A stretch of 64,000 nucleotides of DNA from Herbiconiux solani NBRC 106740 (lineage in GTDB: Bacteria > Actinomycetota > Actinomycetes > Actinomycetales > Microbacteriaceae), in NCBI RefSeq assembly GCF_001571005.1, contig NZ_BCST01000003.1, positions 248,001 through 312,000 of the forward strand. Direction: 5' to 3'. The position numbers were made by a program, and so were the translations under genes. Of the stretch, positions 12,228 through 50,631 are shown piece after piece. The first letter of the stretch is position 1. Every line of letters starts with the position of its first letter. The notes below the pieces were generated by a model that ran no database searches, had not been told where the DNA came from, and saw only the letters and a list, made by a program, of their open reading frames with translations.

Positions 12228-12236
12228 CGCGTCGTC

Positions 12237-12290
12237 GAGAAGTCACTTTTACGTCTACCCACACGGTTTTGGACGTGAAAGTGACTTCTC
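12237..12290. repeat. Dispersed palindromic repeat, copy 1
   Basis: Left arm GAGAAGTCACTTTTACGTC (12237-12255) pairs with GACGTGAAAGTGACTTCTC (12272-12290), 19 bp with one G-T pair, across a 16-nt loop that contains CGGTTTTG. It is followed by GGCGA. Copies 2 and 3 at 50419 and 50544 share arms, loop length and flank; the loop here is in reverse orientation relative to them. It lies between two genes that are probably co-transcribed. Confidence 0.9.
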
Positions 12291-12317
12291 GGCGAGGGTT
12301 CGAGGAGGATGGGGGCC

Positions 12318-45540: not shown

Positions 45541-45601
45541 ACCTGCCGATACGACCGGGATAGTCGAAGAAGAAGTAGTCGAAGTAGTAACGGAGATGAA
45601 C

Positions 45602-46606
<1,005 letters not shown>

Positions 46607-46874: not shown

Positions 46875-48074
46875 GTGGAGAGTACGGCTTCTGTGCCGGC
46901 GGCCCGCTTGTCGGGCGCCTCGGGCGCGGCTTCGGTCTCGCGGTGGATCGAGCGCCGGTGGGTCCGGATCGGGCTGGGTGCCGCAGGAGTCGCTGCGGGG
47001 TTCGTCGTGGCGGGTGCGCTGATGGGGGCGTCCTCGGCATCGGCGGATGAAGCTCCCACGACGGGGCCGGTCGCCGGCCTCCTCGGGTCGGTCGGCTCGG
47101 CCGTCGGGGGGCTGGGCGACGTGGTCGCGCCGGTCACCGGTGCGGTCGGCGACGTGGTGTCCGGGGTCTCCGACCAGGTCGTCGCACCGGTCGTGACGGA
47201 GGTCGTGACGCCCGTCGTCGAGGTTCTTCCCGCCCCGGTCTCCGAGCCGGTGGCGGATGTCGTCGCGGTCGTCCCCGCGGTGACCGACACGGTCGCCGAC
47301 GTGGTCGACGCGGGCCCGGTCTCGGGCATCGTCGACCCGGTCGTCGGTGTCGTGGACGGCGTCGTCGCGCAGGTTCCCGTGGTCTCGGATGTGCTCGGAT
47401 CGGCCCCGGTCGGGTCGGTCACGGCCCCGGTCACGGGTGTCGTCGATGGGGTTCTCACGGATGTCGTCTCCGGCACCGTCGCACCCGTCGTGCACGACGT
47501 CGCCGACCCGATCGTCGAGGCCGGCGGCGGCACGCAGGTGCTGCCCGGTCTCCCTGGTCTTCCCGGAGTTCCCAGTGTTCCCGGGCTTCCCGGGGTGCTG
47601 AACCCGGGTTCGGAGTCGCCGTCGGTGCCGGTTCTCGGCCCGGTCGCGGCTCTTCCCGGCGCCTTCGTCGGCGGCCCTTCGGCCGGGCTTGGCGGTGCTG
47701 GTCTTGGTGCCGGAGCCGGTGGGCTCGCGGGTGTGGGCGGCGGGTTCGCCGCATCCGCTTCTGGTTCTTCTGCGTCGGCTGCTGACGGCTCTTCGGACGC
47801 CTCTGCGGCTGCTCTCTCGGGGTCTGTGGGTTCGCCTGCCACCCCGCTCTCGCCCGCTCTTCCGGGCGCGCCCTACGGCCCTGCTGCCCCGTCCGGCCAG
47901 ACGTCGGGTGCCGCGGGCGGTTCGTCCGGCCCCGGTGGGGCGGGCGCAGGCTTCGGAGCCGACGTGGTGGGTGCGGGCGTGTTCCCGGCTCTCTTCGGCG
48001 CTCTGACGGGCACCGCGGTCGACGAGGACATCCCCTCGTCCCCGGTGCACGAGACCGACACTTCTCCTGACTGA
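46875..48074 (+). CDS. Secreted low-complexity Val/Pro/Gly-rich protein
   Basis: A 399-residue protein with a GTG start behind GGGAGGTG. An N-terminal segment with RWVRIGLGAAGVAAGFVVAG ends in ASSASADEA, a probable signal peptide cut after ADA-like residues near 59. The mature part is a run of VVxPVVxxV and VTGVVDGVV units (about residues 65-235), then PGLPGLPGVPSVPGLPGV, and a Gly/Ala/Ser-rich tail. It has no Cys, no sorting signal and no known domain. It precedes the chaplin-like gene by 96 bp on the same strand, so it may be a matrix or surface partner. No function is assigned. Confidence 0.75.
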   Translation: MESTASVPAARLSGASGAASVSRWIERRWVRIGLGAAGVAAGFVVAGALMGASSASADEAPTTGPVAGLLGSVGSAVGGLGDVVAPVTGAVGDVVSGVSDQVVAPVVTEVVTPVVEVLPAPVSEPVADVVAVVPAVTDTVADVVDAGPVSGIVDPVVGVVDGVVAQVPVVSDVLGSAPVGSVTAPVTGVVDGVLTDVVSGTVAPVVHDVADPIVEAGGGTQVLPGLPGLPGVPSVPGLPGVLNPGSESPSVPVLGPVAALPGAFVGGPSAGLGGAGLGAGAGGLAGVGGGFAASASGSSASAADGSSDASAAALSGSVGSPATPLSPALPGAPYGPAAPSGQTSGAAGGSSGPGGAGAGFGADVVGAGVFPALFGALTGTAVDEDIPSSPVHETDTSPD

Positions 48075-48084
48075 CCGAACCCTC

Positions 48085-48105
48085 GCCCCGTGGATGCTCC
48101 GGGGC
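48085..48105 (+). terminator. GC hairpin between the two surface-protein genes
   Basis: GCCCCG-N9-CGGGGC (one perfect 6-bp stem) lies 11 nt after the first stop. There is no T-run, so it is a weak terminator or mRNA-end stabiliser. Confidence 0.35.
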
Positions 48106-48170
48106 TGATGGGTTCTGACGCGGCATGTCCGTGTCCTGTTCGGTCAATCAATTTTTGGAGAAGTGTACTC

Positions 48171-50339
48171 ATGAACAAGTTCGTCTCGCGGGGACTGTGG
48201 ACAGTCCTCATCACCGGTGGGCTGTGCGCCCTCGGTGCGGGAGTCGCGAACGCTGCCACGACGGATGGCAGCGACTCGATCGGCTCCGGAAACCAAGCGG
48301 TCGTGCAGATCAACCTGCCGATCGATCTCTCCGGCAACGGTGTCGCCGTACTGGGCGACAGCAGCTCGTCGGGTTCGACGGTTTCGTCGGATGCCGCTCC
48401 GGCTCCGGCTCCGGCTCCGGCTCCCGTGGAACTCTCCACCAGCGGCCTCGACGGGGTGCTCTCGGGCACTCAGGCGATCGTCGACGTGAACGTCCCGATC
48501 ACGGTCTCGGGCAACGCGATCTCCGGTGTCGGCGACGCGGCCACCGAGGACGCCACCGTCGAGGCTCCGGCCCAGGCGGCCCCGGCGGCGGATGCTCCCG
48601 TCGCGGACTCGTCGTCGGCGGGCTCCACCTCGGGTAACGACAGCATCCTCGGCGGCACCCAGGCGCCGATCGACGTCGCGGTCCCGATCACGGTCAGCGG
48701 CAACAGCGTCTCGGTCATCGGGGACTCCTCCTCGACCGGCTCGAGCGCCACGACCGGCACTGCTGGCACCGGCACCGCGCCGGCGGCCGGGACCACCACC
48801 GGAGAGGACAGCATCCTCGGCGGCACCCAGCTGCCGATCGATGTGGCGCTCCCCGTCACCATCGGCGGCAACGGCATCTCGGTCATCGGCGACTCCTCGT
48901 CGACCGGCTCCGACGTCGGAACCTCCACCGGCAACACCGGCAGCGGCACCACCTCCGGCATCGGCACCACCACCGGCGAGGAGAGCGTCGCAGGCGGCAA
49001 CCAGGTGAACCCCGTCGTCACCGCCCCGGTCACGGTCGGCGGCAACGGCATCTCGGTCATCGGCGACTCCTCGTCGACCGGCTCCGACCTCGCCACCACC
49101 ACCGGCAACACCGGTAGCGGAACCGGCACCGGCACCACCTCGGGCACCGGCACCACGACCGGCGAGGACAGCGTCGCAGGCGGCAACCAGGTGAACCCGG
49201 TCGTCACCGCCCCCGTCACCATCGGCGGCAACGGCATCTCGGTGATCGGGGACTCCTCCTCCACCGGCTCGGACGTCACCACCACCGGTAGCACCCCCGC
49301 CACGGGCACCGGCACCACCTCGGGCTCCGGCACCACGACCGGCGACGACAGCGTCGCGGGCGGCAACCAGGTGACCCCGGTCGTCACCGCCCCCGTCACC
49401 ATCGGCGGCAACGGCATCTCGGTCATCGGAGACTCCTCCTCGACCGGCTCTGACGTCGGAACCACCACCGGCACCACCGGTAACGGGACCGGCACTGGCA
49501 CCACCGGCGGAGCCACCACCGACGGCAACGACAGCGTCGCCGGCGGCAACCAGATCAACCCCGACGTCACCGCCCCCGTCACCATCGGCGGCAACGGCAT
49601 CTCGGTCATCGGAGACTCCTCCTCGACCGGCTCGGACGTCACCACCAACACGGGCAACACCGGCACCACCGGCGGAGCCACCACCGACGGCAACGACAGC
49701 GTCGCTGGCGGCAACCAGGTGATCCCGGTGATCGGGCTCCCCGTCACGGTCGGCGGCAACGGCGTCTCCGTGATCGGCGACTCCTCCTCCACCGGCTCGA
49801 CGGTGACCACCCCCACCGGTGGCACCCTGGGCAACCCGGCCACGAACGGTGACGGATCGATCGGAGGCGGCAACCAGATCATCCCGATCCTGGACCTCCC
49901 CATCACGATCGGCGGGAACGCCGCCTGCGTCATCGGCGACTGCACCACCGGCGGATCCACGGTGACCCCGACGGACCCCACCGATCCGACCGATCCCACG
50001 GACCCGACGGACCCGACCGATCCGACCGATCCCACGGACCCCACCGGCCCGACGGACCCGGGGACCCCGACCGACCCGGGCACCCCGGTGACGCCTGAGC
50101 AGCCCACCAGCCCCGCCACCCCGGCGGCTCCGGTGACGCCTGCCACGGTCGTCCCGGCCGGGTTCACCACCACCCCCGTCGCCTCCGCGGCGATGGGAAC
50201 CGGTGCCGGAGCCGACACCGGCAGCCTGGCCCTCACGGGAGGCAACCCCTTCCCGCTGATCGGCGGACTGGCCCTGCTGCTCCTGCTCGGCACCACCCTC
50301 CTGGCCGCCACCCGCCGCAAGACGGGCACCCAGGAGTAG
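48171..50339 (+). CDS. Ten-repeat chaplin-like surface protein with LALTG sorting signal
   Basis: A 722-residue exported protein. The signal peptide (1-28) ends GAGVANA. Residues 35-598 hold ten repeats of about 36 residues with consensus DSVAGGNQVNPVVTAPVTIG then GNGISVIGDSSSTGSD, matching the chaplin pattern (GNxxxxPxxxPVxxxGNxxxVIG), separated by Thr/Gly linkers. Only the last repeat has Cys, in NAACVIGDC. A (TDP)n spacer (about 601-626) precedes LALTG (686-690), a hydrophobic helix and RRKTGTQE, a sortase E-type LAXTG anchor. Streptomyces long chaplins have two repeats and the same anchor. Probably a wall-linked, amyloid-prone surface coat protein. GGAG precedes the ATG by 10 nt. Confidence 0.85.
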   Translation: MNKFVSRGLWTVLITGGLCALGAGVANAATTDGSDSIGSGNQAVVQINLPIDLSGNGVAVLGDSSSSGSTVSSDAAPAPAPAPAPVELSTSGLDGVLSGTQAIVDVNVPITVSGNAISGVGDAATEDATVEAPAQAAPAADAPVADSSSAGSTSGNDSILGGTQAPIDVAVPITVSGNSVSVIGDSSSTGSSATTGTAGTGTAPAAGTTTGEDSILGGTQLPIDVALPVTIGGNGISVIGDSSSTGSDVGTSTGNTGSGTTSGIGTTTGEESVAGGNQVNPVVTAPVTVGGNGISVIGDSSSTGSDLATTTGNTGSGTGTGTTSGTGTTTGEDSVAGGNQVNPVVTAPVTIGGNGISVIGDSSSTGSDVTTTGSTPATGTGTTSGSGTTTGDDSVAGGNQVTPVVTAPVTIGGNGISVIGDSSSTGSDVGTTTGTTGNGTGTGTTGGATTDGNDSVAGGNQINPDVTAPVTIGGNGISVIGDSSSTGSDVTTNTGNTGTTGGATTDGNDSVAGGNQVIPVIGLPVTVGGNGVSVIGDSSSTGSTVTTPTGGTLGNPATNGDGSIGGGNQIIPILDLPITIGGNAACVIGDCTTGGSTVTPTDPTDPTDPTDPTDPTDPTDPTDPTGPTDPGTPTDPGTPVTPEQPTSPATPAAPVTPATVVPAGFTTTPVASAAMGTGAGADTGSLALTGGNPFPLIGGLALLLLLGTTLLAATRRKTGTQE
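48273..49965 (+). repeat. Tandem coding repeats of the chaplin-like gene
   Basis: Units of roughly 110-185 bp encode the ten chaplin-like domains. The shared stretch GGCGGCAACGGCATCTCGG recurs near 48863, 49038, 49223, 49403 and 49584. Units 4 to 8 are the most alike, so they probably arose by recent duplication; copy number may vary. Confidence 0.85.
49972..50050 (+). repeat. 9-bp tandem repeat encoding (TDP)n
   Basis: ACCGATCCG/ACGGACCCG units encode eight TDP triplets that form the wall-spanning spacer before the sorting signal. Confidence 0.85.
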
Positions 50340-50385: not shown

Positions 50386-50418
50386 TTCACCCTGCCCGCC
50401 GAAACCTAGCGTCTCCCC

Positions 50419-50472
50419 GAGAAGTCACTTTCACGTCCAAAACGCCCTGGGAAGACGTAAAAGTGACCCCTC
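50419..50472. repeat. Dispersed palindromic repeat, copy 2
   Basis: Left arm GAGAAGTCACTTTCACGTC and right arm GACGTAAAAGTGACCCCTC around a 16-nt loop beginning CAAAAC, followed by GGCGAAGTG. Two arm positions are unpaired. Same element as at 12237 and 50544. Confidence 0.9.
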
Positions 50473-50543
50473 GGCGAAGTGAGTGGATGCACGGGGACGC
50501 GCGGGATGGGTGAGGACGCGAGCAAGTCACGCGATGGGCCCTC

Positions 50544-50597
50544 GAGAAGTCACTTTTACGCCCAAAACCACGCGGGAAGACGTAAAAGTGACTTCTC
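50544..50597. repeat. Dispersed palindromic repeat, copy 3
   Basis: Left arm GAGAAGTCACTTTTACGCC and right arm GACGTAAAAGTGACTTCTC around a 16-nt loop CAAAACCACGCGGGAA, followed by GGCGAAGTG. It lies 125 bp from copy 2 in the same orientation, between convergent genes. Confidence 0.9.
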
Positions 50598-50631
50598 GGC
50601 GAAGTGGGGAGGGGGCGACGACGGGTGCGCG

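Follow-up and report, generated by a model that had tools for sequence, protein, structure and literature searches.

Chaplins have been studied for their role in allowing the hyphae of Streptomyces to grow into the air. The relevant passages of three papers describe them as one- or two-domain proteins (PMC5618241, PMC8166509, PMC3079736), and part of another gives LAXTG as the signal of class E sortases, the enzymes that anchor the chaplin ChpC (PMC5148588). Each chaplin domain has a conserved Cys pair, which is missing from ChpE and from one domain of ChpB. We analysed a window of 64,000 nucleotides from Herbiconiux solani NBRC 106740 (contig NZ_BCST01000003.1, positions 248,001 to 312,000), which encodes at 48171..50339, on the + strand, a multi-repeat chaplin-like surface protein of 722 amino acids. 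The assignment draws on translation, Pfam, a repeat pattern, hidden Markov models (HMMs) and profile–profile comparison. The original prediction for this DNA had set ten domains here against the one or two of known chaplins, and both parts stand: ten domains were found, and the passages cited above agree on one or two.

Repeat architecture and relationship to chaplins

The frame translates without internal stops into a signal peptide (MNKFVSRGLWTVLITGGLCALGAGVANAA, 48171..48257, its start position kept among relatives), ten repeats of 38–39 residues with linkers of Thr/Gly or Ala/Pro between them, a spacer of the (TDP)n type, the LALTG motif and, after it, a hydrophobic helix with a basic tail, all on the + strand. 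A single pattern matches the ten repeats at residues 30–68 (48258..48374), 90–127 (48438..48551), 153–190 (48627..48740), 208–246 (48792..48908), 266–304 (48966..49082), 328–366 (49152..49268), 388–426 (49332..49448), 449–487 (49515..49631), 504–542 (49680..49796) and 558–595 (49842..49955). The 24-residue cores of all ten align without a gap, which bears out the earlier claim that they share one pattern; they recur with a period of 53–63 residues and are separated by segments of 29–39 residues rich in Thr/Gly or Ala/Pro. Since repeats 5 to 8 are 87–94% identical in DNA, their sequences suggest a recent duplication. The Pro/Thr/Asp spacer with (TDP)n (49968..50150, limits approximate) and the LALTG sorting signal (residues 686–690, 50226..50240) were both found at the C-terminus, as had been foreseen, and are followed by the predicted hydrophobic helix and the basic tail (50250..50336).

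With the Pfam ChpA-C profile (PF03777; cut-off 21 bits), the protein scores 57.3 bits, so the similarity to chaplin profiles proposed for it is upheld. Eight stretches match, the best of them at residues 26–62, over repeat 1, where it covers profile positions 9–45 of 57. We also built a canonical chaplin HMM from 45 domains of loci L179–L206, the genomes of which are inferred to be Streptomyces. It gives the protein 73.4 bits, with nine of the ten repeats above 8 bits and the Cys-bearing tenth at 3.7. The totals of 200 residue shuffles stayed at or below 7.5 bits and their single domains at or below 5.3, none exceeding 8. When one permutation was applied across all cores, which keeps the repetition, 200 controls reached at most 4.4 bits overall and 8.7 per domain, with no more than one domain above 8, and the reversed sequence had no domain above 8. 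A single profile–profile comparison with canonical chaplins returned a probability of 97.2% and an E-value of 3.4e-11 over 32 gapless columns.

In the gapless columns, canonical domains and repeats share the series GN-x13-GN-x4-[IV]G, with a Pro before the second strand. The first and second GN motifs have canonical spacing in the repeats, the first reading GT in three of them. The position of the first canonical Cys is occupied by Gly or Ser in all ten repeats, the third GN motif is absent from all ten when their columns are compared with those of canonical domains, and the canonical LLNPAFGNTC block is replaced by D-S-S-S-T-G-S or a similar sequence. Its hydrophobic part LLNPAF, which follows the core, gives way to Asp together with Ser, Thr or Gly in 10/10 repeats. 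The grand average of hydropathy (GRAVY) of 23-residue cores is 0.78 here and 0.67 in canonical chaplins; in 45-residue windows it ranges from −0.15 to 0.49 over the ten repeats (mean about 0.18), the canonical mean being 0.43. The hydrophobic, possibly amyloid surface layer suggested in the original prediction stays a conjecture: the cores equal canonical ones in hydropathy, but the LLNPAF part is lost and the mature chain is acidic.

As judged from these alignments, the relationship of the repeats to chaplins is real, and each repeat is a truncated chaplin domain that has lost the canonical Cys residues and the third GN. We regard the protein as chaplin-derived and not strictly as a chaplin because, despite the Pfam match, the Cys pair and the set of one- or two-domain proteins with short forms are both absent. 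Three further PF03777 matches in the genome at E ≤ 1 (C5, 16.1 bits; C8, 12.8 bits; C4, 12.7 bits) all lie under the cut-off, and the only one of these weak loci that was inspected, that of C5 (L004), has no chaplin open reading frame (ORF).

Cys was predicted to occur in the tenth repeat only, and this is confirmed: C586 and C591, the only two Cys residues of the mature chain, form a C-x4-C pair (49926..49943). A canonical chaplin role for the pair is ruled out by the gapless register, which places it off the canonical Cys positions. Among 689 unique 39-residue repeats, Cys occurs ten times each in columns 29 and 34, the two columns of the repeat-10 pair, seven times in canonical column 24, six times in column 38 and once in each of three other columns. 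In a Nonomuraea protein (L144:5806-8226), nine of the ten repeats, by a count made by eye, carry a Cys where canonical chaplins have it, and this protein is possibly a bridge from chaplins to the Cys-free repeats. Beyond Nonomuraea, Cys-bearing repeats are found in most intact Herbiconiux proteins (not L046 or L112), in L096 and in an Agrococcus metagenome-assembled genome (MAG; L113).

Distribution, putative wall anchor and partner gene

The protein is not peculiar to one genome; relatives were found throughout Microbacteriaceae. In Herbiconiux, 11/16 genomes match, one of them (G012) through the Pro/Thr/Asp spacer only, which leaves 10/16. A sample of the family contains PF03777 matches (E ≤ 0.001) in 25/120 genomes, and the matching frames have 368–923 amino acids in every listed row, with no short frames; a five-repeat profile matches 33/120. 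The profile also matches 42/297 genomes of an order sample, in five families, the weaker matches having E-values of about 1e-12. In a phylum sample with 16 candidates scored per genome, PF03777 matches 15/396 genomes, 11 of them in the group f5, in which at most two chaplin domains per frame were seen. A collection of 84,980 genomes yielded 271 stretches encoding a relative, of which the best 80 are our named loci. These 80 are presumably all from Microbacteriaceae, going by their titles, except for Janibacter, Phycicoccus, Nonomuraea and a MAG labelled Fulvimarina. Herbiconiux is not known to form aerial hyphae or spores, nor are aerial hyphae known from Microbacteriaceae; the placing of the protein in a non-sporulating type of actinobacterium agrees with this genus.

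The named loci contain 82 related ORFs, 73 ending in LAXTG and one in LVXTG. These 74 have 5–10 repeats each, save for one fragment with two; the other eight are without the motif, and several of them are visibly truncated, masked or frameshifted. At 20 family loci, the ending is LAXTG in 15, LPXTG in three and neither in two, and L096 has 13 repeats.

All parts of a C-terminal sorting signal are there in the 722-residue protein: LALTG, a predicted helix at residues 694–720 and then RRK. L686, A687 and G690 are invariant among 37 aligned sequences, a set chosen for a sortase-type motif. The NCBIfam LAVTG model scores 17 bits, under its cut-off of 27. LALTG had been read as a class E signal, and it fits the LAXTG given in the relevant part of PMC5148588. 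A search at E ≤ 0.01 turned up two sortases in the genome. One (L011) scores 243 bits with the class E model NF033747 (cut-off 160), so the class E sortase that the original prediction called for is present; the other is matched by the class F model only, with a score under the cut-off of that model. Class E sortases occur in 108/120 family genomes, among them 32 of the 33 that carry the repeat protein, all but G082. The enzyme fits the anchoring model and is not specific to the repeat protein, because 108 of the 120 genomes have one.

Directly upstream of the repeat gene lies a gene that the original prediction had not mentioned. This partner gene (46875..48074, + strand) encodes a secreted Val/Pro-rich protein of 399 amino acids and is supported by homologues upstream of other repeat genes and an alignment of 27. 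Its signal peptide ends in SASA-DE and is followed by repeated PVxxVV segments, a Gly/Ser/Pro-rich region and a conserved, acidic C-terminal tail with the consensus DDxLPSSPVxDTDxSPD; in the window the tail is DIPSSPVHETDTSPD, with IPSS in place of LPSS. The protein has no match in Pfam or NCBIfam.

A partner homologue stands upstream on the same strand in 103/109 loci, as scored with an HMM trained on 57 of the 109, which include genomes counted twice; the approximate gap is 64–161 nucleotides (median 95). The six loci without it are those of Janibacter (L117) and Nonomuraea (L144) and L104, L107, L139 and L171, in the last four of which the gene starts less than 300 bases from the end of the available sequence. 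Within Herbiconiux, the partner is found in 10/10 genomes with the repeats and in 0/6 without. At E ≤ 1e-10, the 120 genomes of the family sample divide into 30 with both genes, three with repeats only (G021, G023, G082), four with the partner only (G054, G063, G067, G126) and 83 with neither (Fisher p 1.3e-20, without correction for kinship), and the coordinates show that the two genes adjoin in 30/30 genomes having both. Upstream of the repeats, G021 has a partner-like frame (L081) and G082 a weak one of 33 bits; in G023 none was seen on inspection. In the order sample the partner occurs in 19/297 genomes, 15 of these in the family, where 13/13 genomes with repeats also have it.

In three of the partner-only genomes, G054, G063 and G067 (with two loci in G067), the partner is followed by the gene of a different secreted acidic repeat protein. 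These Val/Asp-rich repeat surface proteins (L207:2376-4019, +; L208:2176-3504, +; L209:5255-7210, −; L210:2417-6976, +) begin with [MV]N...R[AG]L...GG, have a similar signal peptide and carry the tails LAYTG, LPQTG, LASTG and LAMTG. None matches the repeat HMM, and the best canonical-HMM domain has 2.4 bits or there is none (three scored, L207 left out). The contig of the fourth genome, G126, ends at the site, and its next gene is unreadable.

The repeat–partner pair behaves as a cassette. All six Herbiconiux genomes without the pair retain a sigma-70 factor (SigA/SigB type), which in the window lies upstream of the pair at 45596-46606, and five of them also retain the neighbours on both sides. 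In L250 and L251 the matches to the sigma factor and to the permease are 236 and 283 nucleotides apart, and at the sixth pair-less site (L252) transport genes lie nearby. In L247, L248 and L249 we noted by eye a UvrA-like frame between sigma factor and permease. We considered the sigma factor as a member of the unit and rejected it, as among the loci compared its homologue adjoins the pair only in Herbiconiux and in one other genome of the family (L096) and stays behind in pair-less genomes.

Hairpins are predicted in the intergenic leader between the two genes (48075..48170, + strand), which also has a GGAG ribosome-binding site. Folding of the leaders of 37 loci against dinucleotide shuffles gave a median z of −2.5, with 21/37 below −2 and −1.79 for the window. 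The leader has no Rfam match. The folding energies are suggestive of a conserved RNA structure, yet RNAalifold predicted no consensus pairs on a MAFFT alignment of the leaders, and we claim no covariation.

A palindromic element, CGAGAAGTCACTTTTACG (0–2 mismatches) with its inverse 20 bases on, occurs at 12236-12291, 50418-50473 and 50543-50598. The exact core of the palindrome is present in 5/252 loci, all of which are overlapping stretches of the window's own genome.

A possible surface coat and its alternatives

From the repeats, their kinship with chaplins, the anchor motif, the sortase gene and the linked partner, we infer a wall-anchored, multivalent relative of the long chaplins whose modules would stack into a beta-rich coat, an account that we think has about an even chance of being right. 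The signal peptide would export the repeat protein, a class E sortase would most likely join it to peptidoglycan at LALTG and the (TDP)n spacer would span the wall. Ten chaplin-derived beta modules, Cys-less save for the last and connected by flexible acidic linkers, would then be displayed outside. The modules could stack on one another, both inside a chain and from chain to chain, and so give rise to the coat, which may serve attachment or help in coping with drying surfaces, and the secreted upstream partner would be its soluble co-component. The labour would be split as it is between long and short chaplins, but with a many-module anchor and no short chaplin.

AlphaFold2 models of the full-length protein have a predicted local distance difference test score (pLDDT) of 61.2 and a predicted template modelling score (pTM) of 0.55, with low confidence in parts of the linkers. 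For five repeats (53 sequences), the best model has a pLDDT of 80.0 and a pTM of 0.73 and contains short beta strands in the repeats. The repeats are predicted to be beta-rich, and we take nothing but this from the models because, according to a passage in PMC11795689, AlphaFold 2 yields confident, unrealistic beta-solenoids for repeats. As for the missing Cys residues, part of PMC3079736 states that ChpE is without both and that reduced chaplins still assemble, so that Cys would be dispensable for fibrils in vitro.

Several points weigh against the coat. One is the reported tendency of AlphaFold 2 just mentioned, and another is that the remaining four five-repeat models have mean pLDDT values of only 68.4 to 50.3. 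Foldseek found no significant match (best E 0.04, template modelling scores up to 0.13); among its non-significant matches, FapC ranks second (E 0.091) and a CsgA 14th (E 6.5). Neither is among four sequence matches in the PDB, the best of which covers the Pro/Thr/Asp spacer. By their names most of the weak Foldseek matches are beta-helix or solenoid folds, a point that we do not use in argument. The mature chain is strongly acidic, with 57 Asp/Glu, no Lys/Arg, two Cys and a GRAVY of −0.03. Removal of Cys from ChpH impaired aerial growth in vivo, as a passage in PMC3079736 reports. Finally, outside the family, the partner went undetected in 25/29 genomes of the order sample that match the repeat profile, at up to seven candidates scored per genome; the remaining 4/29 have it, adjoining the repeats in two (G600, G786).

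The exchange of the gene next to the partner allows a broader, tentative proposal, which we hold to be less probable than not: the locus may be an undescribed two-gene coat of Microbacteriaceae, made of the Val/Pro-rich partner and an exchangeable, sortase-anchored multi-repeat client that usually consists of Cys-free chaplin modules. An unrelated repeat protein, acidic and rich in Val/Asp, could take its place at the locus, with the type of signal peptide and the anchor unchanged. If this is true, chaplin modules would be one interchangeable building block of such coats, unrelated to aerial growth.

The acidity of the chain (57 acidic and no basic residues) would suit a flexible stalk or adhesin, in which independent beta beads bind a ligand such as a glycan, a plant surface or metal ions without any self-assembly, and the number of repeats sets reach and avidity. 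Inter-core segments of 29–39 Thr/Gly- or Ala/Pro-rich residues, modelled in parts with low confidence, and a repeat number that varies, mostly between five and ten, also fit such a stalk. Nevertheless, the repeats are akin to self-assembling chaplins, and their Gly, Asn, Gln, Pro and Asp residues, which hardly vary, look structural rather than ligand-specific; we consider a stalk unlikely.

A layer built mainly of the partner is also conceivable, with the repeat protein only holding it on the wall as an anchor or nucleator and the type of repeat being secondary. The linkage of the partner in family and genus and the different repeat protein that follows it in three partner-only genomes are what this would lead one to expect. 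Other families of the order, however, have repeat proteins for which no partner was detected, and we judge this reading improbable.

That the resemblance to chaplins is due to chance or low complexity, with no shared origin, is hard to believe. The composition is biased, the best Pfam stretch is limited to positions 9–45 of 57 and the scores of single repeats are weak, but the common spacing is gapless, the shuffle and permutation controls and the single profile–profile comparison (E 3.4e-11) separate the repeats from chance, and the Nonomuraea protein has Cys-bearing repeats. A variable surface decoy, for instance against phage or predators, with its diversity kept up by gain and loss of repeats, would agree with the near-identity of repeats 5–8 in DNA and with the presence or absence of the pair within Herbiconiux, but is very improbable given that the repeats show strong conservation, and not diversification, from genus to genus.

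Comparison with known systems

FapC and CsgA are secreted chains with several imperfect beta repeats each and resemble the coat proposed here in this respect; neither gave a significant fold match or appeared among the four PDB sequence matches. CwpA and CwpB of Actinoplanes missouriensis are, like the repeat protein in our model, class E sortase substrates, and part of PMC13251363 records that the authors think they make the hyphal surface hydrophobic, just like long chaplins; unlike our protein, they have no chaplin domains according to the same passages. A chaplin-like gene in another non-sporulating actinobacterium, Arthrobacter chlorophenolicus, is described in a portion of the review PMC4255298; multi-repeat proteins, Microbacteriaceae and a partner, by contrast, are mentioned nowhere in that portion. 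The same portion suggests that attachment to surfaces is possibly an older function of chaplins. With a many-module chaplin derivative throughout a family not known for aerial hyphae, a linked partner and no short chaplins found in the genome, the question of whether attachment came first becomes testable in simpler bacteria.

Of the short chaplins, ChpE shares with the repeats the absence of both conserved Cys residues, as stated in part of PMC3079736, and differs in being a single-domain, unanchored protein of Streptomyces development. The closest described relatives are the long chaplins ChpA-C of Streptomyces (PF03777), which have in common with the protein described here the signal peptide, the GN-x13-GN-x4-[IV]G core, a hydrophilic spacer, a LAXTG-type anchor and the class E sortase. 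They have two modules where there are ten here, and unlike them the Herbiconiux protein has Asp after VIG, is strongly acidic and is without the canonical Cys and the third GN block; no short chaplin was found in its genome, and the linked partner gene has no Pfam match. Among the matches listed in the open-licence literature of PMC, the passages available describe no multi-repeat chaplin in Microbacteriaceae. The part of the chaplin domain that has been kept is the two GN strands, and what was dropped is both Cys residues and the third GN. Set beside the one- and two-domain chaplins described so far, the multi-repeat form with its partner appears, from these comparisons, to be new.

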